64,000 nucleotides of DNA. It comes from Rufibacter ruber. Its GTDB lineage: Bacteria > Bacteroidota > Bacteroidia > Cytophagales > Hymenobacteraceae. Shown here one piece after another: positions 1 to 59,815 of the stretch. The position numbers and the translations under genes were made by a program. The notes beneath the pieces were generated by a model, which saw only the letters and a list, made by a program, of their open reading frames with translations, was not told the DNA's origin and searched no databases. The stretch lies in NCBI RefSeq assembly GCF_001647275.1, contig NZ_LRMM01000026.1:1-64000 (forward strand), read 5' to 3'. The first letter of the stretch is position 1; each line of letters begins with the position of its first letter.

Positions 1-26
1 TTTTTGGGGCTGTTTACTGAAAACAA
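1..26. repeat. 40-bp palindromic element, copy 1 (cut by window edge)
   Basis: Left-truncated copy of the dispersed palindrome: the TTTTTGGGGCTG arm is followed by GAAAACAACG. The outer left bases lie outside the window. It sits upstream of the YetF-like gene. Confidence 0.6.
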
Positions 27-138
27 CGCACAGAAGGACGTTCTTTTTCTGGCCCGCCCCGCCGCCTGAGTTCTTCTAAACCCGGGGCTCCTTTTCCCGT
101 CTTCTATAGAGGAACTTACTGCAAACCAGGGTATAGAT

Positions 139-657
139 ATGGAAGACATGTTTTTCAAGAACTGGGACGGGATACTACGGGTGGTGTTGATGTCATTGCT
201 GGCATACGTGTACCTGATAATTGTGCTTCGCGTTACCGGCAAGCGCACCCTCTCCAAAATGAACGCCTTTGATTTCATTGTGACGGTGGCCTTTGGGTCT
301 ACCCTGGCTACCATCATTCTCTCCAAAGACGTGACGCTGGCCGAAGGGGTGGTGGCGCTGACCATGCTGACCCTGCTGCAGTACATCATTACGTGGCTTT
401 CTGTGCGGTCTAAGGCAGTGTCTGAGCTGGTGAAGTCAGAGCCCCGGTTTCTGTACTACCAGGGCAAATTTCTGGAGAAGGCACTGCAGGAGGAACGGGT
501 AACCCAAGACGAGGTGCTGGCCGCCATGCGCAGCAGCGGTATTTCTGGCCTGGAACAGGTAGAGGCGGTAGTGCTGGAGACCAGCGGCAGTATGAGCGCC
601 CTTAAAAAGCAGGAAGGCACGGCCCCCACCGTACTGCACAATGTAAAAGAGGCATAA
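139..657 (+). CDS. DUF421 (YetF-family) membrane protein
   Basis: Inner-membrane protein of the DUF421/YetF family, whose biochemical role is not settled. Three hydrophobic helices are visible at about residues 13-33, 46-62 and 68-88. Between the first two lies the family signature VTGKRTLSKMNAFDF. The remainder is a soluble cytoplasmic domain with the hallmark EPRFLYYQGKFLEKAL near residues 100-116. The length of 172 residues fits the short form of the family. The ATG at 139 is the first in frame and gives a normal N-terminus; I see no clear Shine-Dalgarno sequence. The gene stands alone and converges on the GAF-domain gene across a 128-base gap in which I see nothing notable. Confidence 0.85.
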   Translation: MEDMFFKNWDGILRVVLMSLLAYVYLIIVLRVTGKRTLSKMNAFDFIVTVAFGSTLATIILSKDVTLAEGVVALTMLTLLQYIITWLSVRSKAVSELVKSEPRFLYYQGKFLEKALQEERVTQDEVLAAMRSSGISGLEQVEAVVLETSGSMSALKKQEGTAPTVLHNVKEA

Positions 658-785
658 TTCAGCTGGTTTCAGACGGGAGACGGCACGGGTGCAGCTCTTT
701 CTGAAGATACCCCAGTGGAAGACATTAGGAGGAGACGCTCTCCCGGGCTCTTAAATTTATGTGGCTGGTCCCGCAGGGCCAGGCG

Positions 786-1394
786 TTAGTTCAACGGAGG
801 GTTCTGGGAGTTCATGACTTTCTGCAACTGCGCCAGCTGTTGCTGGACCAGTGCCAGTTGCCCCTTTTCCCGTTCCCGCTCCAGCCTGATGCGCCTCAGC
901 TCAAAGTGCAGCATCACCTGCCTGGCCAGCACCTCCAGCGCCAGCCGCTGCTCCTGGGTGAGAATACGCGGCTGGGTGTCTATCACACAGAGGGAGCCAA
1001 GGGCATGGCCCTGCGGGGTCACCAGCGGCACGCCGGCGTAGAACTTGATATTGGGGTTACCCGTTACCAGGGCGTTGTCTTTAAACCGATGGTCTGTGGT
1101 GGCATCTTCTACCTCAAACAGCCCGTTGCCCTGAATGGCATGGTGGCAGAATGAAACAGACCGCGGCGTCTCTGAGATGGTCAGCCCCAGTTTTGACTTA
1201 AACCATTGCCGGTCTTTTGACAGCAGGGAAATAAGGGAGATGGGCACCCCGCACACCTGTGACGCCAGCTCCGTGAGTTCGTCCAGCTCCTCTTCTGCGG
1301 TAGTGTCTAAGAGTTCATATTCTGCCAACGCCTCTAAGCGCAGCTCCTCGTTTTGGGAAGGGGTGTTTCCTGGAGAAAACTCGGCTATGGGCAT
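786..1394 (-). CDS. GAF domain-containing protein
   Basis: Cytoplasmic sensory protein of 202 residues, almost all of it one GAF domain (about residues 15-165), as in light- or redox-sensing proteins. Recognisable stretches are RLEALAEYELLDT before the domain, VPISLISLLSKDRQWFKS, RSVSFCHHAIQ, and YAGVPLVTPQGHALGSLCV. A C-terminal Glu/Gln/Arg-rich helix (about 165-195) looks like a coiled coil. No kinase, cyclase or output domain is attached, so its output is unknown. The frame is open upstream to 1508, but a TACCTTTG promoter box lies at 1437-1430 on this strand, inside that extension. The ATG at 1394 is therefore the better start, with a leader of about 30 bases. Confidence 0.8.
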   Translation of the reverse strand: MPIAEFSPGNTPSQNEELRLEALAEYELLDTTAEEELDELTELASQVCGVPISLISLLSKDRQWFKSKLGLTISETPRSVSFCHHAIQGNGLFEVEDATTDHRFKDNALVTGNPNIKFYAGVPLVTPQGHALGSLCVIDTQPRILTQEQRLALEVLARQVMLHFELRRIRLEREREKGQLALVQQQLAQLQKVMNSQNPPLN

Positions 1395-1429
1395 TTCATT
1401 TGGCTTAGGGGTGGTCAAATTTCTTGTGG

Positions 1430-1437
1430 CAAAGGTA
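1430..1437 (-). promoter_or_regulatory. -7 promoter box TACCTTTG of the GAF gene
   Basis: Read on the minus strand this is TACCTTTG, matching the Bacteroidota -7 consensus TAnnTTTG. It lies 36 bases upstream of the ATG at 1394. The -33 TTTG partner is about 22 bases further up, which is a little far. Confidence 0.55.
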
Positions 1438-1542
1438 ATTGTCAACCCCGTGGCCGGACCAAAAAATCGATGAAATAGAAATATACCCCGTTGAAACTGA
1501 GCTTTCACTAGTTACTGACTAGGCTGATTTTCAGCAATTTCC

Positions 1543-1550
1543 TACTTTTG
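1543..1550 (+). promoter_or_regulatory. -7 promoter box TACTTTTG of the MFS gene
   Basis: TACTTTTG matches TAnnTTTG and ends 18 bases before the ATG at 1569. It rules out the upstream in-frame TTG at 1548, which is part of the box itself. I see no clear -33 element. Confidence 0.5.
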
Positions 1551-1568
1551 CGCGCTCAATTCGGCAAC

Positions 1569-2783
1569 ATGGTCAAAATTCTCACCCTCTACCGCAATGC
1601 CTTTGGCGGCCTTTCCCGGGAGGCCTGGCTGTTGGCGGCGGTGATGTTCATTAACCGGAGCGGGGCCATGGTGGTGCCGTTCCTAAGCGTGTACCTGACC
1701 GAGTCTCTGGGGTTCAGCGTGAGGGAAACGGGTATCTTGCTCAGCCTGTTTGGGGTGGGTTCTATGTGCGGCACTTTTCTGGGCGGCTGGCTCACTGACC
1801 GCATTGGCCATTTCAGGGTGCAGTTCTTCAGCCTGGTTCTGGGCGGAGGCTGGTTTTTTGTAATGGTGCAGCTACAGCGGTTTGAATTGTTTGCCGGGGG
1901 TATTTTCCTGCTCAGCCTGCTCACTGAAAGCCTCAGGCCGGCCAACGCCTCTTCGGTGAGCTCATATGCGCGCCCTGAGAATGTCACCCGCGCGTTCTCC
2001 CTTAACCGCATGGCCATCAACCTGGGCTTTTCCATTGGCCCGGCGCTGGGCGGTGTACTGGCCACCGTTTCCTACCAGTGGCTCTTCATGGCAGACGGAC
2101 TGACGTGTATCACTGCGGGGGCTATCTTCTACTTCTACTTTCGGCACCGCCAGGGCCACGCCCCACTGCCCAAACCGGCAGAGGCCGCTGCGCCTGCGGC
2201 CGCACCAGACCGCAACCCGTACCGTGACGGCCTGTTCCTGCTCTTTACGGTGCTGTGCTGCTTTTTTGCGGTGGCTTTCTTCCAGTTCTTCTCTACCATG
2301 CCGCTGTATTACCGGCAGGTGTACCAGCTCTCTGAGCTGCAGATTGGCGCCCTGCTGGCTTCTAACGGACTCATGGTGTTTCTGCTGGAGATGATCATTG
2401 TCTATCTGGTGGGGGACCGGTTCCCCCTCTGGAAGATGATTGTCACGGGTCTGCTGCTGCTGGCCATGGCGTTTGCGCTCCTGAACCTGGCCTATGGGTT
2501 TCTGGTGCTGTTGCTCTCGGTGCTGCTCATGAGCCTTTCTGAGATTCTGGCCATGCCGTTCATGAGCACGCTCACCGTGCACCGGTCGGGCCTGCGCAAC
2601 CGGGGTTCCTATATGGCGCTCTACAGCCTTGCCTACTCCGCGGCCCATATCATTGGCCCGTTTGTGGGCACCAGAACCATTGCCAGCTTCGGGTTTGACA
2701 CGTTGTGGTGGGCAGGCTGCGGGCTCTCTGTCTTTACGGCAGTCGGTTTCTACGTGGTGGTGCGCCGGTTACAGGCCGCCTAA
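1569..2783 (+). CDS. MFS transporter
   Basis: Major facilitator superfamily permease of 404 residues, resembling MdtH-like drug or metabolite exporters. Two six-helix halves are separated by a cytoplasmic Ala/Pro-rich linker near residues 195-220. The loop between helices 2 and 3 carries the MFS signature as GGWLTDRIGHFRV (compare G-x-x-x-D-R-x-G-R-R/K). The substrate cannot be told from sequence. The start is set at ATG 1569 because a promoter box covers the upstream TTG. It is divergent from the GAF gene, and copy 2 of the 40-bp palindrome begins 10 bases after its stop. Confidence 0.85.
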   Translation: MVKILTLYRNAFGGLSREAWLLAAVMFINRSGAMVVPFLSVYLTESLGFSVRETGILLSLFGVGSMCGTFLGGWLTDRIGHFRVQFFSLVLGGGWFFVMVQLQRFELFAGGIFLLSLLTESLRPANASSVSSYARPENVTRAFSLNRMAINLGFSIGPALGGVLATVSYQWLFMADGLTCITAGAIFYFYFRHRQGHAPLPKPAEAAAPAAAPDRNPYRDGLFLLFTVLCCFFAVAFFQFFSTMPLYYRQVYQLSELQIGALLASNGLMVFLLEMIIVYLVGDRFPLWKMIVTGLLLLAMAFALLNLAYGFLVLLLSVLLMSLSEILAMPFMSTLTVHRSGLRNRGSYMALYSLAYSAAHIIGPFVGTRTIASFGFDTLWWAGCGLSVFTAVGFYVVVRRLQAA

Positions 2784-2792
2784 GCCCTAGTT

Positions 2793-2831
2793 CTGTTTTT
2801 GCCTGTTTTCCTGAAAACAGGCCAAAAACAG
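2793..2831. repeat. 40-bp palindromic element, copy 2
   Basis: Arms CTGTTTTTGCCTG and CAGGCCAAAAACAG with inner T4/A4. It begins 10 bases after the MFS stop codon. Confidence 0.9.
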
Positions 2832-2892
2832 CCGTTTCTTTTTCTCTGTGCCCTCTTTTTTGCAACTTACCGAAAACCAACTCTCCCTGTCT

Positions 2893-4377
2893 GTGAAATC
2901 TCTGAATGCCTTAGTTCTATTGGTTGCCATAACCTTAGCCGCCTGTACCTCCGTTAAACAGATCCAAACCAATAAAGAAATGATGGTCTACGTAGGTACG
3001 TACGCAAAACCAGACGCCGAAAGCATCTTTGCCTTCCGGCTGAATGAACAAACCGGGGAACTGACCAGGGTGATCTCCGTGAAAGGCGGTGAGAACCCTT
3101 CTTTCCTGGCCCTGGACAAAGACCGCCAGCACTTATACGCCGTGAACGAGACCGCCCAGTTCCAGGGGCAGAAAGGCGGCGGGGTAAGTGCGTTTTCCAT
3201 AGATCAGCGCACCGGCAACCTCACCCTCCTGAACCAACAGCCTACCTTGGGCGGCGCCCCCTGCTATATCAGTCTGGATCATTCCGAGAAGGTAGCGCTG
3301 GTGGCCAATTATTCCGGCGGGAACGTCACGGCGTTCAGGATTGAGGCCGACGGGAAGCTGAGCGCGCCCACTGATTCTGATCAGCACGAAGGAAGCGGCC
3401 CCAGAAAAGAGCAGAAAACGGCGCACGCCCACTGCATTGTACCAGATCCCAAAAACGACTTCGCCCTGGCGGTAGATTTGGGCATAGACCAGATCATCGG
3501 CTACAAACTGGACAAAGCCAATGGCAAACTGGAGCGCCAGGCGCAGCCCGCGTTCACGGCCAAGCCGGGGGCCGGACCGCGCCACCTCACCTTCCACCCC
3601 AACAAGCGCTTTGCCTACGTGATCAGTGAGCTCAACTCCACCCTCACGGCCCTCACCTACAACGCCGCCACGGGCACGTTCACCGAGGTAGAAACCGTTT
3701 CCACGCTCCCGGCGGGCTTCACCGGCGAAAGCTTCTGCGCCGATGTGCACGTTTCTGAAGACGGCCGGTTTGTGTACGGCTCTAACCGCGGGCACAACAG
3801 CATAGTGGTGTTCGCCATTGACCAGACCAGCGGCAAACTTACCTTGGTGCAGCATGAGAATGTGCAGGGCAACTGGCCCCGCAATTTCGGGTTTTCGCCC
3901 TCAGGGAAAACGCTGTTGGTGGCCAACCAGCGCTCCAACAACATCACCACGTTTAAAGTAGACCCGCAGACAGGCAAGCTCACCTACACAGGTAAATCAG
4001 TGGAGTTAGAGTTTTGCCTTGCACGTTTGCGCGTCTACCACCGCAATGGCCACCATGTTGATGATGTCCCGCACAGAGGAGCCCAGCTGCAGAATGTGCA
4101 CCGGCTTGCGCATGCCCATCAGTACCGGGCCAATGGTTTCGGCCCCGCCAATCTCCTGCAGGAGTTTATAGGCAATGTTACCGGCGGCCAGCCCCGGGAA
4201 GATCAACGTGTTGGCTCCTTCATTGGCCAGCTCGCTAAACGGATAGTGCTCCCGCAGCAGATCTGTGTTTACTGCGGTATTGGCCTGCATTTCCCCGTCA
4301 ATGAGCAGGTCTGGGTACCGCTGCTTGGCCATACGGGTAGCCTCGCGGGTTTTGGTAGGTACCACGCCTGCGCTTGA
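2893..4377 (+). CDS. Lactonase-family (6-phosphogluconolactonase-like) lipoprotein with aberrant 3' end
   Basis: Seven-bladed beta-propeller of the lactonase/YbhE family (Pfam Lactonase), here an exported lipoprotein. From the GTG at 2893 the product begins with a hydrophobic segment ending in the lipobox LAAC. The propeller follows, with YVGTYAKPD, the repeated D..TG.L blade motifs, GAGPRHLTFHPN and GENPSFLAL. Homology ends at about base 4005 with [11 protein letters not shown]. The frame then continues 124 codons on the antisense of maeB to a stop at 4375-4377. The family normally has about ten more residues and a stop here. The maeB stop codon lies at 4006-4008, so no intergenic sequence is left. 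The tail is probably not functional; a deletion that removed the native C-terminus and stop is likely. A GTG at 2848 is a weaker start. Confidence 0.7.
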   Translation: MKSLNALVLLVAITLAACTSVKQIQTNKEMMVYVGTYAKPDAESIFAFRLNEQTGELTRVISVKGGENPSFLALDKDRQHLYAVNETAQFQGQKGGGVSAFSIDQRTGNLTLLNQQPTLGGAPCYISLDHSEKVALVANYSGGNVTAFRIEADGKLSAPTDSDQHEGSGPRKEQKTAHAHCIVPDPKNDFALAVDLGIDQIIGYKLDKANGKLERQAQPAFTAKPGAGPRHLTFHPNKRFAYVISELNSTLTALTYNAATGTFTEVETVSTLPAGFTGESFCADVHVSEDGRFVYGSNRGHNSIVVFAIDQTSGKLTLVQHENVQGNWPRNFGFSPSGKTLLVANQRSNNITTFKVDPQTGKLTYTGKSVELEFCLARLRVYHRNGHHVDDVPHRGAQLQNVHRLAHAHQYRANGFGPANLLQEFIGNVTGGQPREDQRVGSFIGQLAKRIVLPQQICVYCGIGLHFPVNEQVWVPLLGHTGSLAGFGRYHACA

Positions 4378-6276
4378 CCCAAAGTTGGAGTAGGACAGCA
4401 CCGCAATTCTTGGCACCCGGTCAAAGAACCGTACGTAGCGGGCAGTCAGGCCTATGATGTCTACCAGTTCCTCTGCGGTAGGCTGCAGGTTCACGGTGGT
4501 GTCTGAGAAGAAATAAGGCTCTTTTTTGTTCTGGATGATGTACATGCCGGCCACCTTGTTCACGCCTTCTTCCACGCCAATAACCTGCAGCGCGGGTTTA
4601 ATGGTAGAGGAGTAGTCACGGGTCAAGCCAGAGATGAGGGCATCGGCCTCGCCGGTCTCCACCATCATGCAGCCAAAGTAGTTCCTGATGCGCACCAGCT
4701 TGCGGCAGTCAAACAGGGTCATGCCTTTGCGTTTGCGCTTCTCGTAAAGCAGGTGGGCAAATTTCTCACACTTGGCGTCTTCCTCGCGGGGGTCAATAAT
4801 TTTCACCCCGTCCAGTTCTAAATGGAATTCCTCAATCAGTTCCTGAATGCGGGCTTTCTCCCCTAGCAGAATAGGGAAGGCCATGTTTTGCTCCAGCACC
4901 GTCTCTGCCGCCTTAAGGATCTTGTAGTTGTCTGCCTCGGCAAATACCACGGTCTTGGGGTTCTGGCGGGCCTGGGTAATCACCCGGTTCATCAGTTTCT
5001 GGTCTATCCCAATGCGGGCCTGCAGGTCATGGTGGTAGCGCTCCCAGTTTTTGATTGGGTTCTTCGCCACCCCGGTCTCCATGGCCGCTCTCGCCACGGC
5101 AGGGCTCACCGTAGTGATCAGGCGTGGGTCCAGGGGTTTGGGGATCAAATACGTGCGGCTGAAGGAGATGGTATTGTCACCGTAGGCCTTGTGTACAATG
5201 TCGGGCACCGGCTCTTTGGCCAGTTCTGCCAGGGCATACACGGCGGCCAGTTTCATAGCCTCGTTGATCTCAGTGGCACGCACGTCTAAAGCCCCCCTGA
5301 AAATGTAAGGGAACCCGAGTACGTTGTTCACCTGGTTAGGATGGTCTGAACGGCCGGTAGCCATGATCAGGTCATCACGGGTAGCCATGGCGGCCTCATA
5401 CGCAATTTCCGGGTCTGGATTGGCCAGGGCGAAAATGACAGGGTTGGCGGCCATCTTTTTCACCAGCTCTGGGTCCAGCACATTGCCGGCGCTCAGCCCC
5501 ACAAACACATCAGCGCCTTCCATGGCCTCTGCCAGGGTGGTGATCTTGCGCATGGTCACAAACTGGGCGCGGTAAATATCCAGATCATTGCGCTCCGGGT
5601 TGATGATGCCGTCTTTGTCAAACATGACAATGTTGTCAATGTTCACACCCAGGGCCAGGTAGAGCTTGGCGCAGGCAATGGCAGCGGCCCCGGCCCCATT
5701 GATCACCATCTGAATCTTCTTGATGTCTTTGCCCACCAGTTCAAGGGCGTTCAGCAAGGCGGCGCTGGAGATGATGGCGGTGCCGTGCTGGTCATCATGC
5801 ATGAGCGGAATGTTCATCTGCTCCCGCAACGCATTCTCAATCTTGAAGCTTTCAGGGGCTTTGATGTCTTCCAGGTTGATCCCCCCAAACGTAGGCTCCA
5901 GTGATTTTACAATCTGGATGAATTTGTCTGGGTCTGTTTCATTGATCTCAATGTCAAACACATCAATGCCGGCAAATTTCTTGAAAAGAACGCCTTTCCC
6001 TTCCATCACGGGTTTAGAGGCCTCCGGGCCAATATTCCCTAACCCAAGAACAGCGGTTCCGTTGGAAATCACGCCCACCAGGTTGCCTTTGGCGGTGTAT
6101 TTGTACACATCATCTTTGTTGGCGGCAATTTCTTTACAAGGCTCGGCCACGCCGGGGGAATACGCCAGGGCTAGATCCATCTGGGTGCTCACCATTTTAG
6201 TGGGAACCACCTCAATTTTACCCGGCTGTCCTTGGCTATGGTAGTTCAGCGCGTCTTTCTTGTTGATCTTGATCAT
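4006..6276 (-). CDS. maeB: NADP-dependent malic enzyme with phosphotransacetylase-like domain
   Basis: Oxidative decarboxylation of malate to pyruvate, supplying NADPH and pyruvate. The 756-residue product has the two-part MaeB layout. The malic enzyme portion (about 1-420) shows [11 protein letters not shown], the catalytic region [19 protein letters not shown], and the nucleotide-binding [16 protein letters not shown] phosphate acetyltransferase-like domain follows (about 430-750), ending in [16 protein letters not shown] and normally regulatory in this family. The ATG at 6276 is chosen because AGGAGA stands seven bases before it and it gives the usual [14 protein letters not shown]-terminus; the frame extends upstream to 6324. 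It converges on, and is overlapped by, the lactonase reading frame. Confidence 0.93.
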
Positions 6277-6440: not shown

Positions 6441-6487
6441 CATCTCAGACGTTTGCCCGAGATGCCATTCATATAATAGGGGGGATA

Positions 6488-18243: not shown

Positions 18244-18305
18244 TCACCTTCTTTCAAACAGAAAAGCCACCACCTGCGGTGGCTTTTCTGTTTGAAAGAA
18301 GGTGA
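18244..18305. terminator. Perfect 28-bp hairpin between convergent rlmN and mscL
   Basis: Arms with zero mismatches by eye around a 6-base loop (ACCTGC). The inner stem AAAAGCCACC / GGTGGCTTTT has the A-stem-T layout of a bidirectional intrinsic terminator. The 28-bp arm is longer than termination needs. Copy 10 of the 40-bp palindrome follows 23 bases later. Confidence 0.85.
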
Positions 18306-24392: not shown

Positions 24393-24489
24393 AGCAGCCT
24401 ATTAACGTCTAGGCACTATATTACAATATTATCCGGTAAAAAAGATACCTCTCCACTTCGGCTGCCGCCAATGCCGTGGGTGCCCGTTC

Positions 24490-24527
24490 CGTTTTTAGCC
24501 TGTTTTTCTGAAAACAGGTCAAAAACG
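24490..24527. repeat. 40-bp palindromic element, copy 13
   Basis: CGTTTTTAGCCTG and CAGGTCAAAAACG, inner T5/A4. It overlaps the last codons and the stop (24519-24521) of the oxidoreductase gene, so the element supplies coding sequence. Confidence 0.92.
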
Positions 24528-25427
24528 CTCTTCAATCAGTTCCTTGTTCATGGCCGCGCCCGCCATGGTGCCGGTGGCCACCGCAAACGAGACCGTTCTG
24601 AACATGGTCATGGCATCACCGGCGGCAAAAACGCCTGGTACATTGGTTTTCTGCATGGGGTCTACCTTCAAATGCCCGGTTTCAGTCAGTTCACACCCCA
24701 GGTCTATTCCTAGTTTACAGTGCTGTTCAAAAGCGGGGCGGGCAAACATGACGTTCAGGTGGTGGGAGGTGCCGTCTTTCATGTTTACCTGCCGCAGCTG
24801 GCCCTGCGCATGCGTGAGGGAGGCAATTTCCTGTTCAACAAGGGTGACATGGTGCTTCTCTAAAACCAGCCGCTGGTCTGGGGTGAGATCAGCTTTGCCG
24901 TTGGTGAAGACTGTAAGCTGCGGTGTCCAGTTCTGTAGTAGTTTCACCAGCTCCAGGGCCGTGTCGCCGTTGGCCAGAATGCCCCATTCCTGATGGGCCA
25001 CTTCATAGCCGTGGCAATAGGGGCAGTGCAGGATAGAGATGCCCCAGCACTCGGCGAAGCCGTGGATGGGCGGCATCAGGTCTTTCACGCCGGTGGCGAG
25101 CAGCAGTTTACTTCCTGTATAGACGTGGCCGGCCTCTGTGGTAATTTCAAATGCCTGGTTCTGCCTGGCCGCGGCTACTGCTTTTCCCGGTTGCAAGGTG
25201 ACGGTGGGGTAGGCCAGTACCTGTTCCCTGGCTTTCTGGGCAATGGCGGCCGGGGTTTCACCGTCCTGGGTCAGGAAGTTGTGGGAGTGCGGTGTCTGGC
25301 GGTTGCACGGCTGGCCGCTGTCCAGGACCAGCACGCGGCGCAGGGAACGCCCCAAACACATAGCGCCCGACAGGCCGGCATAGCTTCCCCCAATAACAAT
25401 GGCATCAAACTCTTCTCTCTCTATCAT
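24519..25427 (-). CDS. FAD-dependent thioredoxin-reductase-like oxidoreductase
   Basis: 302-residue NAD(P)H/FAD disulfide reductase of the thioredoxin reductase class. The N-terminal FAD-binding motif is AIVIGGSYAGLSGAMCLGRS, with VLVLDSGQPCNR. The redox-active disulfide C-x2-C is present as ILHCPYCHGYEV near residue 135. The NADPH-binding region around TALELVKLLQ and the C-terminal FAD motif VPGVFAAGDAMTMFRTVS follow. Given its size it may serve a dedicated partner rather than the main thioredoxin. It is divergent from a Fur-family regulator whose operator-like palindrome lies 130 bases upstream, so it may be under that regulator's control. Its last codons are supplied by copy 13 of the 40-bp palindrome. 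Confidence 0.88.
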   Translation of the reverse strand: MIEREEFDAIVIGGSYAGLSGAMCLGRSLRRVLVLDSGQPCNRQTPHSHNFLTQDGETPAAIAQKAREQVLAYPTVTLQPGKAVAAARQNQAFEITTEAGHVYTGSKLLLATGVKDLMPPIHGFAECWGISILHCPYCHGYEVAHQEWGILANGDTALELVKLLQNWTPQLTVFTNGKADLTPDQRLVLEKHHVTLVEQEIASLTHAQGQLRQVNMKDGTSHHLNVMFARPAFEQHCKLGIDLGCELTETGHLKVDPMQKTNVPGVFAAGDAMTMFRTVSFAVATGTMAGAAMNKELIEERF

Positions 25428-26216: not shown

Positions 26217-26277
26217 TGAAGGGGATTGCAATTATTACACTTTTGCTGTTCCAGATTTGAAAATCCCAAGCTTTGCT

Positions 26278-26390
26278 CTTCCGGATTTGCAATCCGGAAG
26301 TAGGTAATAGGGGATTTGTAATCCCCGTTTCACTTCATGAGAGGGGATTACAAATCCCCAGATATATGGTTCGGGATTGCAAATCCCGAA
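26278..26390. repeat. Cluster of four short palindromes
   Basis: Four perfect palindromes stand side by side: 26278-26300, 26310-26326, 26343-26359 and 26370-26390. All share a GGATT-GCAA-ATCC-like core. The arrangement resembles REP clusters; no transposase lies nearby. Confidence 0.75.
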
Positions 26391-26457
26391 CAGCGGAATC
26401 AGCAGATTACAGCAGAGAGATAGAAATTTATTAAACCATTTGGCCTTAGCAAAAGAA

Positions 26458-42989: not shown

Positions 42990-43031
42990 ATAAAAGAGAA
43001 GAGGCGCCCTTGGGCGCCTCTTCTCTTTTAT
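42990..43031. terminator. Perfect 20-bp hairpin ending the nuo operon
   Basis: Arms ATAAAAGAGAAGAGGCGCCC and its exact complement around TT. The A-rich flank and T-rich flank make it bidirectional, between convergent nuoN and the LytTR gene. Copy 22 of the 40-bp palindrome begins directly after it. Confidence 0.85.
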
Positions 43032-43432: not shown

Positions 43433-44149
43433 TTACAAACTCATCAGCTCCTTGAAAACCTGGCTTTGCCGGCGGCTCACCTCCACTTCCTCACCACCTT
43501 TCAGTTGAATCTTGATGCTGCCGCTAAACCACGGGTTAATCTGTTCAATGTAATTCACGTTGATAATCTGCTGGCGGTTGGCCCGGAAGAACACCTTCGG
43601 GTCCAGTCGGTTTTCTAAGTAGTTCAGGCTTTTTAAGATGCAGGGGCGCTCCTGGTCAAAGTGCAGGAAAGCGTAGTTGCCGTTAGATTCTATCAGGCGC
43701 ACCTGCTTGAGAGCCACAAACCAGCAGCGCTCGCCGTCTTTCACAAACACGCGGTCTTCCTCGCTGAGTTGAGCAGGAGCGATGGTGGGTTTGGAACCCT
43801 CCTGCTTGTGTAGCGCTTTCTCCACGGCCTGCCGCAGACGGGGCTCCTCAATAGGTTTCAGTAGATAGTCCAGCGCGTTCTGTTCAAAGGCTTTGAGGGC
43901 GTACTGGTCATAGGCGGTGGTGAAGATGACCTGCGGGGTGTACTCCAGCGCCTCCAGCAGCTCAAAACCGTTTTTCTGGGGCAGGTGAATGTCCAGGAAC
44001 AGCAAATCAGGCCGAAGTTCCTCAATCAAAGCAATGCCTTCCTCGGCGTTTTCGGCTTCACCTGCTAATTCCAGCTCCGGGAATTTGCCTAACAGGTGCT
44101 TCAGTTCCAGGCGGGCCAGCCGCGAGTCTTCAATGATGCAGATTCTCAT
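43433..44149 (-). CDS. LytTR-family response regulator
   Basis: 238-residue two-component regulator. The receiver domain (about 1-120) has the acidic pair in CIIEDSRLARLELK, the phospho-acceptor Asp in LLFLDIHLPQKNGFE, the Thr in VIFTTAYDQYAL and the Lys in LLKPIEEPRLRQ. The C-terminal LytTR DNA-binding domain (about 135-238) shows RLIESNGNYAFLHF, FFRANRQQIINVNYIEQI and EVEVSRRQSQVFKELM. It overlaps the upstream kinase gene by 20 bases and is its partner. Targets are unknown; many such Bacteroidota pairs respond to envelope conditions. Confidence 0.92.
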   Translation of the reverse strand: MRICIIEDSRLARLELKHLLGKFPELELAGEAENAEEGIALIEELRPDLLFLDIHLPQKNGFELLEALEYTPQVIFTTAYDQYALKAFEQNALDYLLKPIEEPRLRQAVEKALHKQEGSKPTIAPAQLSEEDRVFVKDGERCWFVALKQVRLIESNGNYAFLHFDQERPCILKSLNYLENRLDPKVFFRANRQQIINVNYIEQINPWFSGSIKIQLKGGEEVEVSRRQSQVFKELMSL

Positions 44150-46262: not shown

Positions 46263-46380
46263 GCTTTTGCCACAGACGCTCGCACGTCCTCCTGACGCTA
46301 CGAGGTCAGAATTAGATTTTCAAGTTTCAAGGAAGATGCCGATAACTCTCTACACTTATATATCCCACGCAGCCCCACGC

Positions 46381-46515
46381 TGGCGCGAGACTAAAGTCTC
46401 GTGACATGGGATGAAGCGAGTCTCCAGACTCGCCGGGAGCCAGCGGCTAAAAAAGTAAAAATGGAGTCTGGAGACTCCACTCACAGTGCGGCACGAGTCT
46501 GAAGACTCGCGCCAG
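46381..46515. repeat. Composite palindromic repeat, family B, copy 1
   Basis: Order of blocks: TGGCGCGAGACT, GGATGAAGCGAG, CGAGTCTCCAGACTCG palindrome, GGAGTCTGGAGACTCC palindrome, CGAGTCTGAAGACTCG palindrome ending GCGCCAG. The same order occurs at 56365-56493. Confidence 0.8.
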
Positions 46516-52394: not shown

Positions 52395-52440
52395 ATAAAA
52401 GCAGAAAGGCGAGATGAAAATCTCGCCTTTCTGCTTTTAT
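52395..52440. terminator. Perfect 21-bp hairpin between convergent TPR and trmH-like genes
   Basis: Exact arms (ATAAAAGCAGAAAGGCGAGA start) around a GAAA loop, 13 bases after the TPR stop. It is a bidirectional intrinsic terminator. Copy 29 of the 40-bp palindrome follows 33 bases later. Confidence 0.85.
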
Positions 52441-53209: not shown

Positions 53210-53240
53210 CAGCGGCAGGCAAAGGAAGAAACGGGAGAGC

Positions 53241-53539: not shown

Positions 53540-53639
53540 CATTAGAAAGAAAAATAAAGAGGTGTCTGATGGGCTAAACCAGGAGCAGAAATTCCAAACG
53601 AGCACATCAGTACCTTAAAAATATTAGCACATTACCACC

Positions 53640-56261
53640 TTGAGTAAATCTGCAGAGTTCAGCGCCACGCCGCTGATGAAACAATACAATGCCATCAAGG
53701 CCAAACACCCGGGCGCGCTCCTGCTGTTCCGGGTGGGAGATTTTTACGAGACCTTCGGTGAAGATGCCATCAAGGCCAGCAAAATTCTGGGCATCATGCT
53801 CACCAAGCGCGGCAACGGCAGCGCGGCTGAGACGGCCCTGGCCGGTTTTCCGCACCACTCTATGGACACGTACCTGCCCAAGCTGGTGCGGGCGGGGGAG
53901 CGGGTGGCCATCTGTGACCAGCTGGAAGACCCTAAAACCGTGAAAGGCATTGTGAAGCGCGGCGTGACCGAGCTGGTGACCCCGGGCGTGTCGTTCAATG
54001 ACCAGGTGCTGGACCAGAAACGCAACAACTACCTGGCGTCATTGCACTTCGGGAAGGAGCTGATTGGCATAGCGCTGCTGGATGCCTCTACCGGTGATTT
54101 CATGCTGGCGCAGGGCGATGCGGGCTACGTGGCGAAGCTGCTCCAGAATTTCGGCCCCGCCGAGGTGTTGTTCTGCAAAGGCAAGAAAGAGACGTTCTTC
54201 CAGAGCTTCGGGCCGGATTTTTGCCATTACGGGCTGGACGAGTGGGTGTATAGCTATGACTTTGCGCTGGAGACGCTCACCAAACAGTTCAATACCCAGA
54301 GTCTGAAAGGTTACGGGGTGGAAGGTCTCACCGAGGGCATTACCGCTGCGGGCGCCGTGCTGCACTACCTGGCAGAGACCCAGCACCATGACCTGCGCCA
54401 CATTTCGGCCGTGGGCCGATTGGAGGAAGACCAATACGTGTGGCTGGACCGCTTCACGGTGCGCAACCTGGAGCTGATTTATCCGCAGCACCCGGAGGGC
54501 GTGCCCTTGATTGACGTGCTGGACAATACTATTACGCCCATGGGTGCGCGCCTGCTGCGCCGATGGCTGGTGCTGCCCTTGAAAGACGCGGCGCAAATAA
54601 GAAGAAGGTTAGACACTGTGGAAGGGTTGCAGGAACGCCCCGAGCTGCTGCAGGACATCAGCCATTACCTGAAGCAGATCAGTGACCTGGAGCGCCTCAT
54701 TTCTAAGGTGGCCGTGCGCCGCGTGAACCCGCGGGAGCTGCTGCAGTTGGCGCGGGCGCTGGAGGCCACGCTGCCCATCAAAGAACTGCTGGCGGTGAGC
54801 GGCGTGCCCGCCCTGCAGAAACTGGCCGACCAACTTTTGCCGTGTGAACGCATCAGGGACGAAATCAAAGCCATTCTCAAACCAGACGCGCCCGTGCTCA
54901 CCAACCAAGGAAACCTGGTGAATGACGGCATTGACGCCGAGCTGGACGAACTGCGGGCCATTGCGTTTTCGGGCAAGGATTACCTGCTGCAGCTTCAGCA
55001 GCGCGAGGTGCAGAACACGGGCATTTCATCGTTGAAGATTGCCTATAACAAGGTGTTCGGGTATTACCTGGAGGTGACGCACGCGCACAAAGACAAGGTG
55101 CCCAGCTCCTGGATCAGGAAACAGACGCTGGTCAATGCCGAGCGCTACATCACCGAGGAACTCAAAACCTACGAGGAGAAGATTCTGCACGCCGAGGACC
55201 GCCTGTATGTGATTGAGCAGCGCATTTTCAACGAACTGGTCTTGAGTACCGCCGAGTTTGTGCCCCAGATTCAGCAGAACGCCAAGGCGCTGGCCGTGCT
55301 GGACTGTCTGGCCAACTTCGCGCAGCTGGCGCAGCAGAACAACTATGTGAAGCCAGAGGTGGATGAGAGCACAGTGCTGAATATTACCCAAGGCCGTCAC
55401 CCGGTGATTGAGAAACAACTGCCGCCCGGTGAGCGCTACGTGCCCAATGATATCAGGCTGGATAATGACGAGCAGCAGATCATCATCATCACGGGGCCCA
55501 ACATGGCGGGTAAAAGTGCCTTGCTGCGACAGACGGCCTTGATTGTGCTCATGGCGCAGATTGGCTGTTTTGTGCCCGCCGAGGCCGCGCAGTTGGGCGT
55601 GATTGACAAAATCTTCACCCGCGTGGGCGCCTCAGACAACCTGAGCCGGGGCGAAAGTACGTTCATGGTGGAGATGACCGAGACAGCCAGCATCCTGAAC
55701 AACCTCTCTGACCGCAGCCTGGTTTTGATGGACGAGATTGGCCGCGGCACCAGCACCTATGACGGGATTTCCATTGCCTGGGCCATTGTAGAGCATTTGC
55801 ACAACGCTCCCAAAGGTCGGGCCAAAACCTTGTTCGCTACGCATTACCATGAACTGAACCAGCTCACCGAAGATTTCCCCCGCGTGCGGAACTACAACGT
55901 AAGCGTGAAAGAAAGCAACGGCAAGATTTTGTTCATGCGCAAACTGGTGGAAGGGGGCAGCGCCCACAGCTTCGGGATACAGGTGGCCCAGATGGCGGGC
56001 ATGCCCAACAGCGTGGTCATACGCGCCAGCGAAATCATGCACCACCTGGAGCAGGAGAAGATCAGCCATCCGCACCAAGACCCGCAGGAAACCCTAAAAA
56101 GCCTGCCCAAGCAGCCGTACCAGCTCAGCATGTTTGAACTCAACGACCCGCAACTGGTGCGCATCAAAGAAGTGTTTGAGAAGCTGGACATTAACACCAT
56201 TACGCCGGTTGAGGCGCTGCTCAAGCTCAACGAGCTGAAAATGCTGGTAGACAAGAAATAG
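53640..56261 (+). CDS. mutS: DNA mismatch repair protein MutS
   Basis: ATPase that recognises mismatches and starts methyl-independent or strand-directed repair, 873 residues. The mismatch-reading motif F-x-E is in [16 protein letters not shown]. Connector, lever and clamp regions fill about 130-560. The ATPase has Walker [14 protein letters not shown], the signature region [13 protein letters not shown] and Walker [17 protein letters not shown], then [13 protein letters not shown]. The C-terminus ends in a helix-turn-helix-like dimer region. The start is a TTG at 53640, as no ATG exists upstream in frame and the residues after it fit other MutS N-termini. Confidence 0.95.
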
Positions 56262-56264
56262 GGG

Positions 56265-56296
56265 CCTCGCCCTGGTCCCTCTCCCGCAGAGAGGGG
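56265..56296. repeat. Unpaired left arm of the CCTCACCC nested-palindrome family
   Basis: CCTCGCCCTGGTCCCTCTCC and CCGCAGAGAGGGG, three bases after the mutS stop and followed 12 bases later by copy 33. No matching right arm is found downstream. Confidence 0.6.
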
Positions 56297-56308
56297 AGCG
56301 TGCTTTTC

Positions 56309-56346
56309 CGTTTTTCGCCTGTTTTGGCGAAAACAGGCCAAAAACG
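56309..56346. repeat. 40-bp palindromic element, copy 33
   Basis: CGTTTTTCGCCTG and CAGGCCAAAAACG, inner T4/A4. Confidence 0.92.
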
Positions 56347-56364
56347 GCATTTACGGGTCCTTTC

Positions 56365-56493
56365 TGGCGCGAATCTTCAGACTCGTGGCAAAGGATGAAG
56401 CGGGTCTCCAGACTCGCCGGGAGGCACTGAAAGAAAACACGGAGTCTGGAGACTCCAACCATCTTTCGGCGCGAGTCCGGAGACTCGCGCCAG
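56365..56493. repeat. Composite palindromic repeat, family B, copy 2
   Basis: TGGCGCGAATCTTCAGACTC, GGATGAAGCGGG, TCTCCAGACTCGCCGGGAG, GGAGTCTGGAGACTCC and GCGAGTCCGGAGACTCGCGC, in the same order as at 46381-46515. Confidence 0.8.
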
Positions 56494-56516
56494 CGTAGCC
56501 TAAAAAGGAAACCTTA

Positions 56517-56552
56517 TTTCTGGGCTGTTTTCAGGAAAACAGCCCAGAAACG
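56517..56552. repeat. 40-bp palindromic element, copy 34
   Basis: TTTCTGGGCTG and CAGCCCAGAAACG, with TGGGC/GCCCA compensated, inner T4/A4. Confidence 0.9.
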
Positions 56553-56637
56553 CGTGAGGGTAAGAAAAGACTGAAAAATTTTCTGCCTGATTTTCAGAAA
56601 GAAATGCGTTTGGTGAAGATTTTTTTGTGGGCACCTC

Positions 56638-56667
56638 TTGACTTTAGAGAAAAAGCGCCTACCTTTG
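56638..56667 (+). promoter_or_regulatory. Promoter of the tRNA-Gly/tRNA-Leu unit
   Basis: TTG at 56638-56640, exactly 19 bases, then TACCTTTG at 56660-56667, about 33 bases before tRNA-Gly. It is one of the best promoters in the window. Confidence 0.75.
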
Positions 56668-56700
56668 TATCACTAATTCAAACAGCGAGTTAGTAAAAAC

Positions 56701-56776
56701 GCGAAAGTAGCTCAGTTGGTAGAGCGCGACCTTGCCAAGGTCGAGGTCGCGGGTTCGAACCCCGTCTTTCGCTCCA
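56701..56776 (+). tRNA. tRNA-Gly (GCC)
   Basis: Full cloverleaf: acceptor stem GCGAAAG/CTTTCGC, D loop AGCTCAGTTGGTAGAGC, anticodon arm GACCTTGCCAAGGTC with anticodon GCC, T arm GCGGGTTCGAACCCCGT. The discriminator T and an encoded CCA end it at 56776. It reads GGC and GGT codons. Confidence 0.97.
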
Positions 56777-56814
56777 GATAAAAGACGTTGCTTCGGTAAC
56801 GTCTTTTGTTTATC
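56777..56814 (+). terminator. Hairpin between the two tRNA genes
   Basis: AAAAGACGTT and AACGTCTTTT around GCTTCGGT (UUCG-type loop). It resembles a weak terminator, but may instead guide processing of a joint tRNA transcript. Confidence 0.5.
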
Positions 56815-56846
56815 TACCTACTCCGTTTCTCCTGTAGGAACGGGAT

Positions 56847-56930
56847 GCCGGGATGGTGGAACTGGTAGACACGCAAGACTTAAAATCTTGTTTCCATTAG
56901 GAAGTGCGGGTTCGATTCCCGCTCCTGGTA
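56847..56930 (+). tRNA. tRNA-Leu (TAA)
   Basis: 84-base class II tRNA: acceptor GCCGGGA/TCCTGGT (a G-U closes position 1-72), D arm with TGGAACTGGTAGACAC, anticodon arm CAAGACTTAAAATCTTG with anticodon TAA, a long variable arm GTTTCCATTAGGAAG, and T arm GCGGGTTCGATTCCCGC. The discriminator is A and CCA is not encoded, unlike the tRNA-Gly next to it. Confidence 0.95.
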
Positions 56931-56935
56931 CTTGA

Positions 56936-56970
56936 AAGCCCTGAATCAGCAATGGTTCAGGGCTTTTTTG
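56936..56970 (+). terminator. Intrinsic terminator after tRNA-Leu
   Basis: AAGCCCTGAA and TTCAGGGCTT around a 10-base loop, followed by six T. Six bases after the tRNA. Confidence 0.85.
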
Positions 56971-57042
56971 TTTTCTTGCTAAAGTATTCTGGTTTCTGCA
57001 TTAGAGGGCTAAAACGCGGGTGTAAGCGGACGCTTGCGCCCA

Positions 57043-57081
57043 CGTTTTTGGCTTATTTTTACAAAAAAAGCCTAGTAACAG
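57043..57081. repeat. 40-bp palindromic element, copy 35 (diverged)
   Basis: CGTTTTTGGCTTA and AAAGCCTAGTAACAG, inner T5/A7. Confidence 0.65.
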
Positions 57082-57320
57082 AAGCTTACTTTTTAAAAGG
57101 CACATGCAGACGCTTGTGCCAGGGCCAGAAAGAAAACTCTAAAACATCTTCCTTAGCTATTCAGTGTTTTCCATCAACTTTCTCAAATTATTTGGAAGCC
57201 TATAGTTTTTATGAGGTGGTCAGTTAAGAACTAGTTGGGAACAATGGGGAAGTAATAAAAAGTTGGGCTGACGGTCCCGAGGATGGCCGTTTCCTAAGAC
57301 CGGAAATCAAATGAATAGTG

Positions 57321-59753
57321 TTACGGCGTTTCTAAGTCAATGGACAGGGAAACCACGTAATTGCGGCCGGGTTCGGGCAAGTTCAGAATGCGGTAGCGGC
57401 TCAGGTGGTTGAGGTATTTCCCATTCAGCAGGTTCTGCACCTGAAAGCCCAGCTGCCCCCACTTCTGCTGGCCCAAATGTATTCCGGTAGTCAGGCTCAC
57501 TAAAGAATACGCGTCTGTTTCCAGTTCATTGCGCTCCACGCGGTGCTGCGCCGCATAATACCCGTAGTTGACTTTGAAGTAACCATTTTGCAGGTAAGTG
57601 GTTAGGCGGGGCAGGTTGTACTCGGCATCGGCCTGCAGTGCGAAGGGAGGGGTGAAGGGCAGGGGAAGCTGCGTGGTGCGGTTCTGAGCCCATACGTATT
57701 CGGCCGTGAGGCCGAAAGTCAAGGTCTGCAAGAGAAAATATTTGGCCGTGGCCTCGGCCCCCGTGTGCAGCGCCCGGGTCTGCCGGAAGCGGTACAATTG
57801 CCCCGCCTCAGCCACAGGGTACAGGCTCCCGTCAATGTTCACCGTGGGAAAAATGCCCGACGGGCTCAGGTAAATGTAGTTCTGGAACAGGTTGAAAAAC
57901 GGCGTAACCGACAGCTGCAGCCGCTCATTGTCATAGCTCACGGCCACATCCAACTGGTATCCTTGCTCGGGTTTCAACGTAGCATCGCCTTGTTCATACC
58001 TAAACGTGCCGTGGTGCATGCCGTTGGCGGTGAGTTCGGCGGCCGCCGGAATCCGGAACGTTTTCCCGAAGTTGGCTTTGAGCCCCCAGCGCTCCGTGGG
58101 GTTGCAGGCCACACCCAAAGACCCGCTCCAGCCCCAGAAATCCCGGTTCACGCGCGGGCTCTGCTGAATGGTGGCAAGGTAGCGGTTCTCATAGTAGAAA
58201 GTCCGCTGTTCCTCCTCGGCCGAAAGATGGCCATAATCCACCCGCAGGCCGCCGTTGGCGATCCATTTCTTGTGCAGGCGGTATTTGGAGAGGGCGAAGA
58301 AACCAACCTGCTGGCTTTTGAAATGAGGAAGCAAAAACTCAAAACCGGCCTGTCGGTTTTTCTGAGCCTGTGCCTGTAAGCCGAAAGTGGGTTCCAGTTT
58401 TCCGCTGAAATGCGGAAAGTAGCGGATATTCGCCGTAGCGGTCTGCAGGTCCAGCTGGGTAGCCAGATGGTTGCTGTCTTCTGACGGAGCCCCGTGTGCG
58501 TGCGGTGCTGAAAGTTCTTTACGGTGGTTGCGCTGATACCCTAAATCTGCCTCCAGCCAGTTTTTGCCCAGTTGAATGTTGCTGTTGGAGATGATTTTGA
58601 AATGGTTAATGTCCTGGCTAGGGAAGGCAATGTTGCGGCGGCTTCCGTCTGGTGTGAGCATATACGCCCGTGGTATACCCATGGCCCCGCTGAAAATGCC
58701 CACCTGCTGGTTGTAGTTGGAGACAGTCAAATGTGTATAGCCCCAGTTCTTGTTCACGCCCACCGTACCTGAAAAGTGGTTTTCCCGACCGGCCGTGTTC
58801 TTGAGCCTCCCGTCATAAATGGGCAGCACGAAGCGGTTGTAGGTAAAGGTCTCAGCGGGTACTTTGTAATCCGCGTAGCGGAGGTGGGTGGCCCTTACCC
58901 GGAAAGTGAGGCCGCGGTGGTTCCCTGCGGTGGCGACCGTGGTGCCGTAGGTGTCATTGTTGGAGCGGTAGATGCCGCGTACACTGGCCGTGTAGTGCCC
59001 TTCCTGCACTGCCACCGGGTGCGAGATGCGCACCACACCGCCCAAAGCATCAGAACCGTGCATTAAACTGGCCGAGCCTTTCACTATCTCCACCTGCTCC
59101 ACATTGAACTGGTCAATCTCCAGGCCGTGGTCTGAACCCCATTGCTGCCCCTCCTGCTTAATGCCGCTATCGGTGACCAATACGCGGTTGAAGCTCAGGC
59201 CCCGGATGACGGGTTTAGAAATGCCTACGCCCATGTTGATGGCGCTTACCCCCGGCAGTTTCTCCAACGTTCCCATAAGCGAGGCGCCAGCATTTTGATT
59301 GATATAGGTTTCATCTGCGGTTTGGGTGAGCACCGAGCTTTCCTGCTGGTTCAGCTGCGCCCCATGGCTCTGCACCACCACCTCCTGCAGTTGCTGGTTA
59401 GAGGGCTGCAACGTTAAAGAAACCGAAACAGGTTCCTGCGCCACGGTGACTGATTTGGTGAGGGTGGCATAGCCCACCATGGAAACCTGCAGCCAGTAAT
59501 GGCCTGGCCTCACCTGGTTCAACTGAAATCTGCCCTGCACATCGGTCTGGGTGCCTTGCAGCGTCTCCTGCAAGTGCACTGAGGCTCCAATTAGTGGCTG
59601 GCCCTGCACGTCCTGCACCTGGCCCTTAATGCTTTGCACCGCCTGCGCCGATGCCTTCTGCGGGAAAAAAGCCAGTCCGCATAGCGCTGTGAACAAGGCC
59701 AGCAAGATGACCGCTTTTCTCACCCAAGTAGGCTTTTGGTTTATTAAATTCAT
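57321..59753 (-). CDS. TonB-dependent outer-membrane receptor
   Basis: 810-residue outer-membrane receptor that imports a ligand using TonB/ExbB/ExbD energy. It has a signal peptide (about 1-36, ending KASAQA), then a carboxypeptidase-like regulatory domain (about 38-125, GQPLIGASVHLQETLQGTQT). The plug (about 135-250) includes GVGISKPVIRGLSFNRVLV and ASLMHGSDALGGVVRI. A beta barrel runs to the terminal LPEPGRNYVVSLSIDLETP. A His-rich segment near residues 416-429 (APHAHGAPSEDSNH) is like those of zinc or other metal receptors. It is the last gene of the operon with the DUF4625 and T9SS genes, which points to metal uptake; heme or another ligand remains possible. Confidence 0.88.
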   Translation of the reverse strand: MNLINQKPTWVRKAVILLALFTALCGLAFFPQKASAQAVQSIKGQVQDVQGQPLIGASVHLQETLQGTQTDVQGRFQLNQVRPGHYWLQVSMVGYATLTKSVTVAQEPVSVSLTLQPSNQQLQEVVVQSHGAQLNQQESSVLTQTADETYINQNAGASLMGTLEKLPGVSAINMGVGISKPVIRGLSFNRVLVTDSGIKQEGQQWGSDHGLEIDQFNVEQVEIVKGSASLMHGSDALGGVVRISHPVAVQEGHYTASVRGIYRSNNDTYGTTVATAGNHRGLTFRVRATHLRYADYKVPAETFTYNRFVLPIYDGRLKNTAGRENHFSGTVGVNKNWGYTHLTVSNYNQQVGIFSGAMGIPRAYMLTPDGSRRNIAFPSQDINHFKIISNSNIQLGKNWLEADLGYQRNHRKELSAPHAHGAPSEDSNHLATQLDLQTATANIRYFPHFSGKLEPTFGLQAQAQKNRQAGFEFLLPHFKSQQVGFFALSKYRLHKKWIANGGLRVDYGHLSAEEEQRTFYYENRYLATIQQSPRVNRDFWGWSGSLGVACNPTERWGLKANFGKTFRIPAAAELTANGMHHGTFRYEQGDATLKPEQGYQLDVAVSYDNERLQLSVTPFFNLFQNYIYLSPSGIFPTVNIDGSLYPVAEAGQLYRFRQTRALHTGAEATAKYFLLQTLTFGLTAEYVWAQNRTTQLPLPFTPPFALQADAEYNLPRLTTYLQNGYFKVNYGYYAAQHRVERNELETDAYSLVSLTTGIHLGQQKWGQLGFQVQNLLNGKYLNHLSRYRILNLPEPGRNYVVSLSIDLETP

Positions 59754-59777
59754 AGAAGGTGAATCAAAATTTGTGTG

Positions 59778-59815
59778 CGTTTTTCGGTGTTTTTTTAAAA
59801 ACAGCCCGAAAACAG
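59778..59815. repeat. 40-bp palindromic element, copy 36
   Basis: CGTTTTTCGGTG and CAGCCCGAAAACAG, inner T7/A5. It lies in the 81-base gap between DUF4625 and the TonB receptor, inside the operon. Confidence 0.8.

Follow-up and report, generated by a model that had tools for sequence, protein, structure and literature searches.

A 40-bp palindromic element specific to Rufibacter within its family and its possible role at transcription-unit boundaries

The genome of Rufibacter ruber (G000; 166 contigs, 5,502,314 bases) is interspersed with an imperfect palindrome of 40 bp, which a first-pass annotation, made from sequence alone, had noticed in the first 64,000 nt of contig C85 (hereafter the window). 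This element lies mostly between genes and is specific to the genus Rufibacter within its family; its place and core are largely kept between species, and the remainder drifts into the spelling of each species. We favour, tentatively and with confidence somewhat short of even, the reading that it is a chromosomal DNA element of this one genus and demarcates transcription units, at whose boundaries it would act as protein-bound double-stranded DNA and have an insulating effect.

Abundance, architecture and taxonomic range

Copies in the window and in a larger sample of the same genome were located with a 46-column weight matrix derived from the sequence itself. This matrix finds 35 copies at 2789-59818 of the window, i.e. 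one per 1.83 kb. The annotation had counted 36 by eye at about one per 1.8 kb, a density that stands; its numbering could not be aligned with ours copy by copy. The copies are as follows (none is given a strand).

2789..2834: copy 1, 49.4 bits
6394..6439: copy 2, degenerate, 30.2 bits
9960..10005: copy 3, GTAG variant, 34.7 bits
11177..11222: copy 4, 59.0 bits
12213..12258: copy 5, 57.3 bits
14861..14906: copy 6, 39.1 bits
15579..15624: copy 7, arms of 19 nt, 100% complementary, 59.3 bits
16581..16626: copy 8, 56.9 bits
18325..18370: copy 9, adjoins canonical hairpin 18244-18305, 49.3 bits
18990..19035: copy 10, 41.1 bits
20644..20689: copy 11, top score in the window, 65.3 bits
24486..24531: copy 12, 9-base overlap with the stop codon end of gene 24519-25427 (-), 54.7 bits
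25966..26011: copy 13, GTAG variant, 36.9 bits
26571..26616: copy 14, 50.2 bits
27945..27990: copy 15, in a gap with one or two elements in 16/16 species, 40.3 bits
29489..29534: copy 16, degenerate, adjoins the start of gene 29533, 34.9 bits
33818..33863: copy 17, by the nuoF stop, counterpart in 16/16 species, 59.6 bits
34123..34168: copy 18, 5' of nuoG, 60.8 bits
37488..37533: copy 19, nuoJ-nuoK gap, 54.4 bits
37579..37624: copy 20, nuoJ-nuoK gap, 45.1 bits
43029..43074: copy 21, after hairpin 42990-43031 downstream of nuoN, 51.4 bits
43387..43432: copy 22, adjoins the stop of gene 43433-44149 (-), 36.3 bits
46221..46266: copy 23, GTAG variant, 49.1 bits
46590..46635: copy 24, CTAC variant, 25.6 bits
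49576..49621: copy 25, degenerate, 27.1 bits
50834..50879: copy 26, 36.5 bits
51098..51143: copy 27, 39.8 bits
52471..52516: copy 28, after canonical hairpin 52395-52440, 51.5 bits
53170..53215: copy 29, 40.1 bits
53237..53282: copy 30, 57.1 bits
53498..53543: copy 31, 54.8 bits
56305..56350: copy 32, 57.3 bits
56511..56556: copy 33, 5' of tRNA genes at 56701 and 56847, 45.4 bits
57039..57084: copy 34, degenerate, after tRNA-Leu, 27.3 bits
59773..59818: copy 35, 37.4 bits

The core CTGTTTTNNNNAAAACAG, with up to three mismatches, has 42 matches in the window against 4.48 expected, and none of 100 shuffles, a comparison that the annotation had proposed, reached 42. In 402,529 bases of G000 the matrix finds 213 copies, 204 of them at 24 bits or more, and none in the control for this count, one single first-order Markov resampling of those sequences. 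Across the 5.5 Mb of the genome the exact core occurs 1063 times (reversed-pattern control, 0), and the sampled density extrapolates to about 2900 copies. Similarly, G006 contains 213 copies in 480 kb (80 kb from the genome start plus 20 samples of 20 kb each, spread over its single contig), i.e. 6-12 per 20-kb stretch and about 2140 per genome. The expectation of thousands of copies genome-wide is thereby borne out; scarcity beyond the window and a copy number at chance level were both looked for, and the genome counts and shuffles show neither.

The element is a near-symmetric site made of two inverted half-sites, with GTTT as outer and TTT as inner part and four bases between the two. Its consensus in G000, YGTTTTnGGSCTGTTTTYnnRAAAACAGSCCnAAAACR, confirms the palindrome drawn up by eye and is slightly looser than that version. 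The mid-arm of the half-sites is usually G/C-rich, and a mid-arm C is not upheld as shared core in G004. Columns beyond the palindrome hold at most 0.05 bit in the G000 matrix, i.e. there is no conserved foot tag. As had been remarked in the annotation, neither consensus nor flanks show a U-tract after the stem, and the element lacks the succession of GC-rich stem and U-tract that defines intrinsic terminators. One inner arm, never both, carries GTAG (or CTAC) in 24 of 209 G000 copies. Three inverted pairs of these variants face a spacer (window 46221/46590; G000 contig C1 12064/12259 and 174044/174553), and a nearly identical stretch is common to three variant copies. A second repeat, consisting of paired GAGTCTGGAGACTC-type hairpins, occurs at 46380-46515 and 56364-56493 of the window, each time between two elements; there are eight such hairpins in 402 kb of G000 and zero to two in the samples of other species.

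The annotation knew of no described family with this sequence. Indeed, comparison of the window with Rfam 15 at gathering score returned no RNA family except two tRNAs, and no description of the element was found among the matches listed from the open-licence PMC literature, a scope outside which subscription journals and preprints lie.

NuoH encoded in the window shares 87-89% identity with its counterparts in Rufibacter latericius, R. glacialis and R. roseus, and at most 75% with the other 77 loci returned. A scan of the Hymenobacteraceae such as the annotation had suggested was carried out with a covariance model built from 46 copies of the Rufibacter genomes, for which E-values are rough. 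All 16 Rufibacter genomes contain the element (111-150 matches among the best 150 candidates scored per genome), and of 46 other genomes of the family, scanned with stricter filters and 108 best candidates each, 44 gave no match and two gave two matches each. These scans scored the best candidates only and therefore show presence, not copy number. In 1.92 Mb from other genera, the G000 matrix likewise finds no copy at 14 bits or more. No such palindrome is present in the nuoF-nuoG gap of eight Adhaeribacter, Pontibacter and Hymenobacter loci. Inspection by eye of 20 stretches, taken from 19 genomes belonging to the family and order (one stretch all N), revealed terminators of the ordinary kind and no palindrome family common to them. 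Across the order, a sample of 291 genomes (four of them Rufibacter) has one to three occurrences of the exact core in 42 of the 287 others, as compared with zero to two occurrences per genome of the backward control. The element can serve to tell this genus cleanly from the rest of its family. A scan of IMG/VR returned the exact element on one viral contig (IMGVR_UViG_2839759663_000002, 1275-1310), which may be a Rufibacter prophage or host DNA.

Counts of the exact core in the other 15 Rufibacter genomes range from 3 to 316. Low counts arise because the dialect differs, not because the element is absent: G014, with three exact cores, has 54 elements in 100 kb. Each of the 16 per-species matrices has its own consensus, e.g. 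YGTTTTnGGSCTGTTTTY in G000, GTTTaggGgCtSTTTTt in G003 and tcCGTTTTYGGScTCaTTTcY in G014. All dialects share GTTT (single bases of which are weak in some species), TTT, a stretch of four free bases, AAA and AAAC. In a tree built from nine nuo genes, G014 is the sister of G000, and G005 groups with G010. In G001 and G006 the nuo stretch shares sequence with the C1:1-80000 stretch, and about nine and eight copies, respectively, are thus doubled in the pooled 16-species counts; this affects the counts of dialects, arm covariation, gaps and G.U pairs (771 pooled copies) and near-identical pairs. Doubled copies were excluded from the terminator and promoter gap counts and from the Y1-locus counts given below, and G006 was recomputed without the overlap.

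Position among genes and among species

Only two of 209 G000 copies lie fully inside called genes. In the window a single copy, at 24486, overlaps a called gene, by nine bases, which agrees with the earlier description of all copies as intergenic and one as reaching into a stop codon. Among G000 gaps of at least 46 nt, a copy is present in 38/41 convergent, 84/143 tandem and 21/43 divergent ones; the counts of gaps with a copy are 39/50, 113/201 and 20/48 in G006, and 118/137, 329/576 and 64/145 in the pooled 16 species (without doubled stretches, 114/135 convergent gaps of at least 46 nt). The 143 occupied G000 gaps hold one copy in 92 cases, two in 44 and three in seven. Occupancy of tandem gaps rises with length, from 1/167 below 46 nt to 23/142 at 46-99 nt, 95/161 at 100-199 nt and 195/250 at 200 nt or more (115/147 at 200-399 nt).

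The distance from stop codon to element is bimodal, with modes at 0-10 nt and 60-70 nt, and the many copies that the annotation saw starting within ten bases of a stop form the first of these. In 309 tandem gaps with an element, sense canonical terminators number 3.53 per kb between stop and element and 0.63 per kb between element and next start. By contrast, the Bacteroidota -7 box, TAnnTTTG, on the sense strand occurs at 1.50 per kb after the element and 0.45 per kb before it (antisense, 0.20 per kb after it). Reading on from a stop codon, one usually meets a terminator, the element, a promoter and the next start, in this order; where a copy lies 0-10 nt past the stop, there is no space for a terminator before it. 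Inspected by eye, canonical terminator hairpins often adjoin the element or merge into it (window 42990-43031 and 52395-52440), and in some relatives the T-tract of the terminator (CTGTTTT) doubles as the element's own outer arm.

Orientation of the loop is independent of gene strand. An orientation by replication strand was considered and rejected: the window has 20 copies one way and four the other, but 250 kb of G000 contig C1 have 40 and 44. Nor was a relation between orientation and GC skew seen by eye in 21 segments of the G006 chromosome.

The nuo locus, within which the annotation had noted copies (they lie between nuoF and nuoG and between nuoJ and nuoK), was compared in all 16 species. 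An element starts 9-12 nt past the last codon of nuoF (stop codon included) in 16/16 species, and the nearest element ends 70-73 nt 5' of the nuoG start, again in 16/16. The spacer between two such elements ranges from zero to about 2 kb, zero meaning one shared element, as found after nuoF in G004, G008, G009, G012 and G015. Behind nuoN an element follows at 61-75 nt in 14/16 species (none was found in G007 and G011), and one lies 6-13 nt from the 3' end of the gene facing nuoN in 12/16, being absent in G001 and G010; in the sampled stretches of G008 and G015 that gene was not located. According to tblastn ends, the nuoJ-nuoK gap measures 1.4-2.6 kb in the seven of eight Pontibacter loci where it was measurable and 0.24-0.91 kb in the three named Rufibacter loci.

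A similar picture emerges from 142 kb aligned between G005 and G010, whose third codon positions are identical at 0.695. Of the 68 intergenic elements mapped here, 55 are matched by a partner no more than 25 nt away from the mapped position; among random intergenic places the figure is 4/345 for those over 60 nt distant from any element, and 50/355 without that restriction. Identity between orthologous copies is 0.871 in the core (random partners, 0.839), 0.641 in the variable arms (0.496) and 0.536 in the loop (0.315). The core value is inflated, since only partners that passed the matrix were counted, and 55/68 is the fairer measure. A 'rewriting' of elements, i.e. their replacement faster than neutral DNA, was rejected, as variable arms and loop diverge about like outer positions.

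In 12/16 species, the degenerate equivalent of copy 16 ends 3-6 nt 5' of the start of gene 29533, and its right half is similar in most species, around CTGAAAACnAAGCGAAAAC; it looks as if this copy had been co-opted as a ribosome-binding region.

Double-stranded site or transcribed hairpin

A hairpin selected as RNA predicts that G.U pairs on the sense strand outnumber the mirror-image A.C mismatches. Canonical terminators in the same DNA show this excess (68 G.U against 23 A.C in 108 hairpins), whereas the sense strand of the element has 475 G.U against 573 A.C in 423 pooled tandem copies, and 147 against 160 in G006. The RNA structure whose mapping the annotation had proposed is unsupported by the strand test. 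The geometry, furthermore, is rigid. Paired half-sites have a centre spacing of exactly four bases in 192/197 cases in G000, 182/187 in G006, and 48/50 and 36/37 in two further species, and strong half-sites without a partner number 27/224, 18/205, 1/51 and 4/41, respectively.

Paired changes in the arms give a mixed result. Pooled arm covariation reaches z of 5.7, 6.0 and 3.6 at positions 9-11 and at most 1.4 at every other position; by species, z is 2.3-3.8 in six, 0.8 in one and zero or negative in nine of 16. In an alignment of the element after nuoF from 15/16 species, changes on both sides occur at 8/18 pairs, with a covariation of 0.302 against 0.149 when shuffled. Such changes are partly due to the symmetry of the dialects and thus alone are no proof of a hairpin. 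Between G005 and G010 there are 37 compensated and 147 broken pairs, and the former do not exceed the arm shuffle (32.8, sd 4.5). Five copies were folded as RNA: three well-matched ones reach -18.8 to -22.2 kcal/mol (z -4.8 to -5.95), one is strong in another register, and a degenerate one does not go beyond shuffles. Although single copies fold well, we reject the RNA-selected hairpin as the best reading, in view of strand asymmetry, fixed spacing and the missing U-tract.

Competing explanations and known systems

We suggest that the element acts as double-stranded DNA, of which a putative dimeric (or tetrameric) protein would read both half-sites. The bound element would insulate neighbouring units on both sides, either as a two-way roadblock that backs up intrinsic termination or by anchoring the DNA so that supercoils stay separate. 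Dialects could arise when the specificity of this putative protein drifts and the sites follow, and copying between sites may assist the change in species with tight dialects.

Several observations weigh against a role as protein-bound boundary DNA. The information content of the species matrices, 26-50 bits, is far above the roughly 11 bits needed to locate about 2900 sites in 5.5 Mb, a surplus that suggests copying as well as selection. Near-identical pairs (up to two differences) are more numerous than under half-site shuffling (39 against 14.8 in G000, 18 against 3.6 in G014). Arm covariation, with z 7.3 within copies in the larger G006 sample and the pooled values at positions 9-11, exceeds what a dimer of single specificity predicts. 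Arm length varies, some copies differing by at least one base either way (matches of 40-44 nt). Copies are present in 42-49% of divergent gaps, which plain termination would not require, and the stretch before the element is also rich in terminator-like hairpins on the antisense strand (1.99 per kb in the 309 tandem gaps). A weak point, finally, are the gene calls, made with a home-made simple hexamer scorer: 13/213 copies in G006 and 84/771 pooled copies fall inside called genes.

Some of these observations would also be expected if the element were a mobile, non-autonomous repeat, or the relic of one, of the repetitive extragenic palindromic (REP) kind, spread by a hairpin-DNA transposase and tolerated at gene ends. 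We consider this rather unlikely. Both the surplus information of the tight dialects and the near-identical pairs in G000 and G014 speak for it, as do the GTAG/CTAC variants with their three inverted pairs. Size, palindromy, copy number and the bias to intergenic positions and 3' ends fit REPs as portrayed in sections of PMC3733652, where REPs are tagged with GTAG or CGTC, lie near 3' ends in tandem and convergent gaps and may function as RNA; the main text of that paper does not mention Hymenobacter or Pontibacter. A subclass of TnpA-REP with atypical structures is reported from Bacteroidetes in a part of PMC6006769. Matches to Y1 transposases, moreover, are present in 15/16 Rufibacter genomes, and an element lies within 450 nt of 19/20 Y1 loci as compared with 768/1088 called genes, a mild excess (element thresholds differ slightly between this survey and that of the dialects). 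Within 200 nt, however, there is no enrichment (9/20 against 697/1088), and in the complete genome G012, where 60 kb contain 17 elements, no Y1 transposase is found at E <= 0.001. Another palindrome, CGGATT-AATCCG, is found within 450 nt of 4/20 Y1 loci against 6/1088 genes and is probably the repeat of Rufibacter that is linked to REP-associated tyrosine transposases (RAYT), for which it is a better candidate than the 40-bp element; paired palindromes resembling those near Y1 loci lie at 26275-26394 of the window. Further difficulties for a mobile repeat are the lack of a foot tag such as the tetranucleotide GTAG/GTGG (or CGTC) of REPs, the places kept in the nuo locus of 16 species and for 55/68 copies of the sister pair, and the lack of a sense-strand G.U excess, whereas PMC3733652, in the portion concerned, mentions frequent GT pairs in REP stems. 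The annotation had likened the element to the REP/BIME (bacterial interspersed mosaic element) class; this holds for size, extragenic position and high copy number. In view of the absent foot tag and of G012, membership of REP/RAYT was not assigned.

An unlikely explanation is a transcribed hairpin that serves as two-way terminator, stabiliser of mRNA ends or processing site. It would accommodate the stable folds of three of five copies, the mostly filled convergent gaps (several short ones contain, by eye, no other apparent hairpin), the many copies 0-10 nt past a stop, and the paired changes behind nuoF. It is hard to reconcile with the absence of both a U-tract and a sense G.U surplus such as canonical terminators in the same DNA possess, with a centre of constant length 4, with canonical terminators already standing between stop and element, and with copies in the nuoF-nuoG, nuoJ-nuoK and divergent gaps.

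Very little probability, in our view, attaches to a palindrome maintained by mutation, in which template-switch correction at replication forks would match the arms and spread spellings with little function. Near-perfect palindromes are in excess in several species (e.g. six against 0.8 in G002), and the within-copy covariation of G006 is of the kind expected; kept places, boundary order and conserved core, however, are left unexplained, and compensated changes between the sister species do not rise above the arm shuffle. Least probable of all is a signal for DNA uptake or recognition that biased uptake maintains, on the model of the DNA uptake sequences (DUS) of Neisseriaceae, which the copy number and the species dialects around a small shared core do recall (PMC3630211, in part), but which according to the same source are short words, common in genes and palindromic only as inverted pairs, whereas the element is 40 bp long, symmetric and fully within genes in only 2/209 copies.

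When small palindromes are found between genes, the usual explanation is either a mobile REP or an RNA hairpin. For the Rufibacter element the RNA reading loses the tests run, the REP reading is left without two defining marks, and across the genus the element keeps its place, its core and its order with respect to terminators and promoters. A wider form of the boundary reading, which we regard as doubtful on present evidence, would see here a punctuation of the bacterial chromosome: palindromes at most unit boundaries, with a putative Rufibacter protein as genome-wide insulator, and a code that changes from species to species with the sites in place. If this were true, whole genomes would have been respelled in step while their sites stayed put. 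The 16 dialects are natural replicates in which thousands of sites change their spelling together, and they make it testable whether one protein reads all sites and insulates transcription units.

Among known systems, REPs, palindromic units (PU) and BIMEs are likewise palindromes (of 20-40 bp), high in copy number, intergenic and near 3' ends in tandem or convergent gaps, as described in PMC3733652. The element differs from them by the lack of foot tag and sense-strand G.U signal, its fixed four-base centre, places kept across the genus and one dialect per species. With the DUS of Neisseriaceae, whose dialects track phylogeny according to the relevant part of PMC3630211, it shares thousands of copies and dialects around a small common core; that part describes DUS as short, often intragenic and palindromic only as inverted pairs, in contrast to a symmetric intergenic site of 40 bp. 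Bidirectional intrinsic terminators resemble the element as stem-loops near stop codons that are most frequent in convergent gaps, whereas the latter has reversed T/A tracts, no U-tract and canonical terminators upstream of it. The REP/BIME sequences of E. coli, as binding sites of gyrase, IHF or Pol I, have a similarly proposed role as protein-bound DNA at the 3' ends of units; they differ in sequence, GTAG tag and asymmetry. Finally, HIP1 of cyanobacteria is also a clade-limited and very frequent palindrome, but it comprises eight bases and is often found in coding DNA, whereas the element spans 40 bp between genes.

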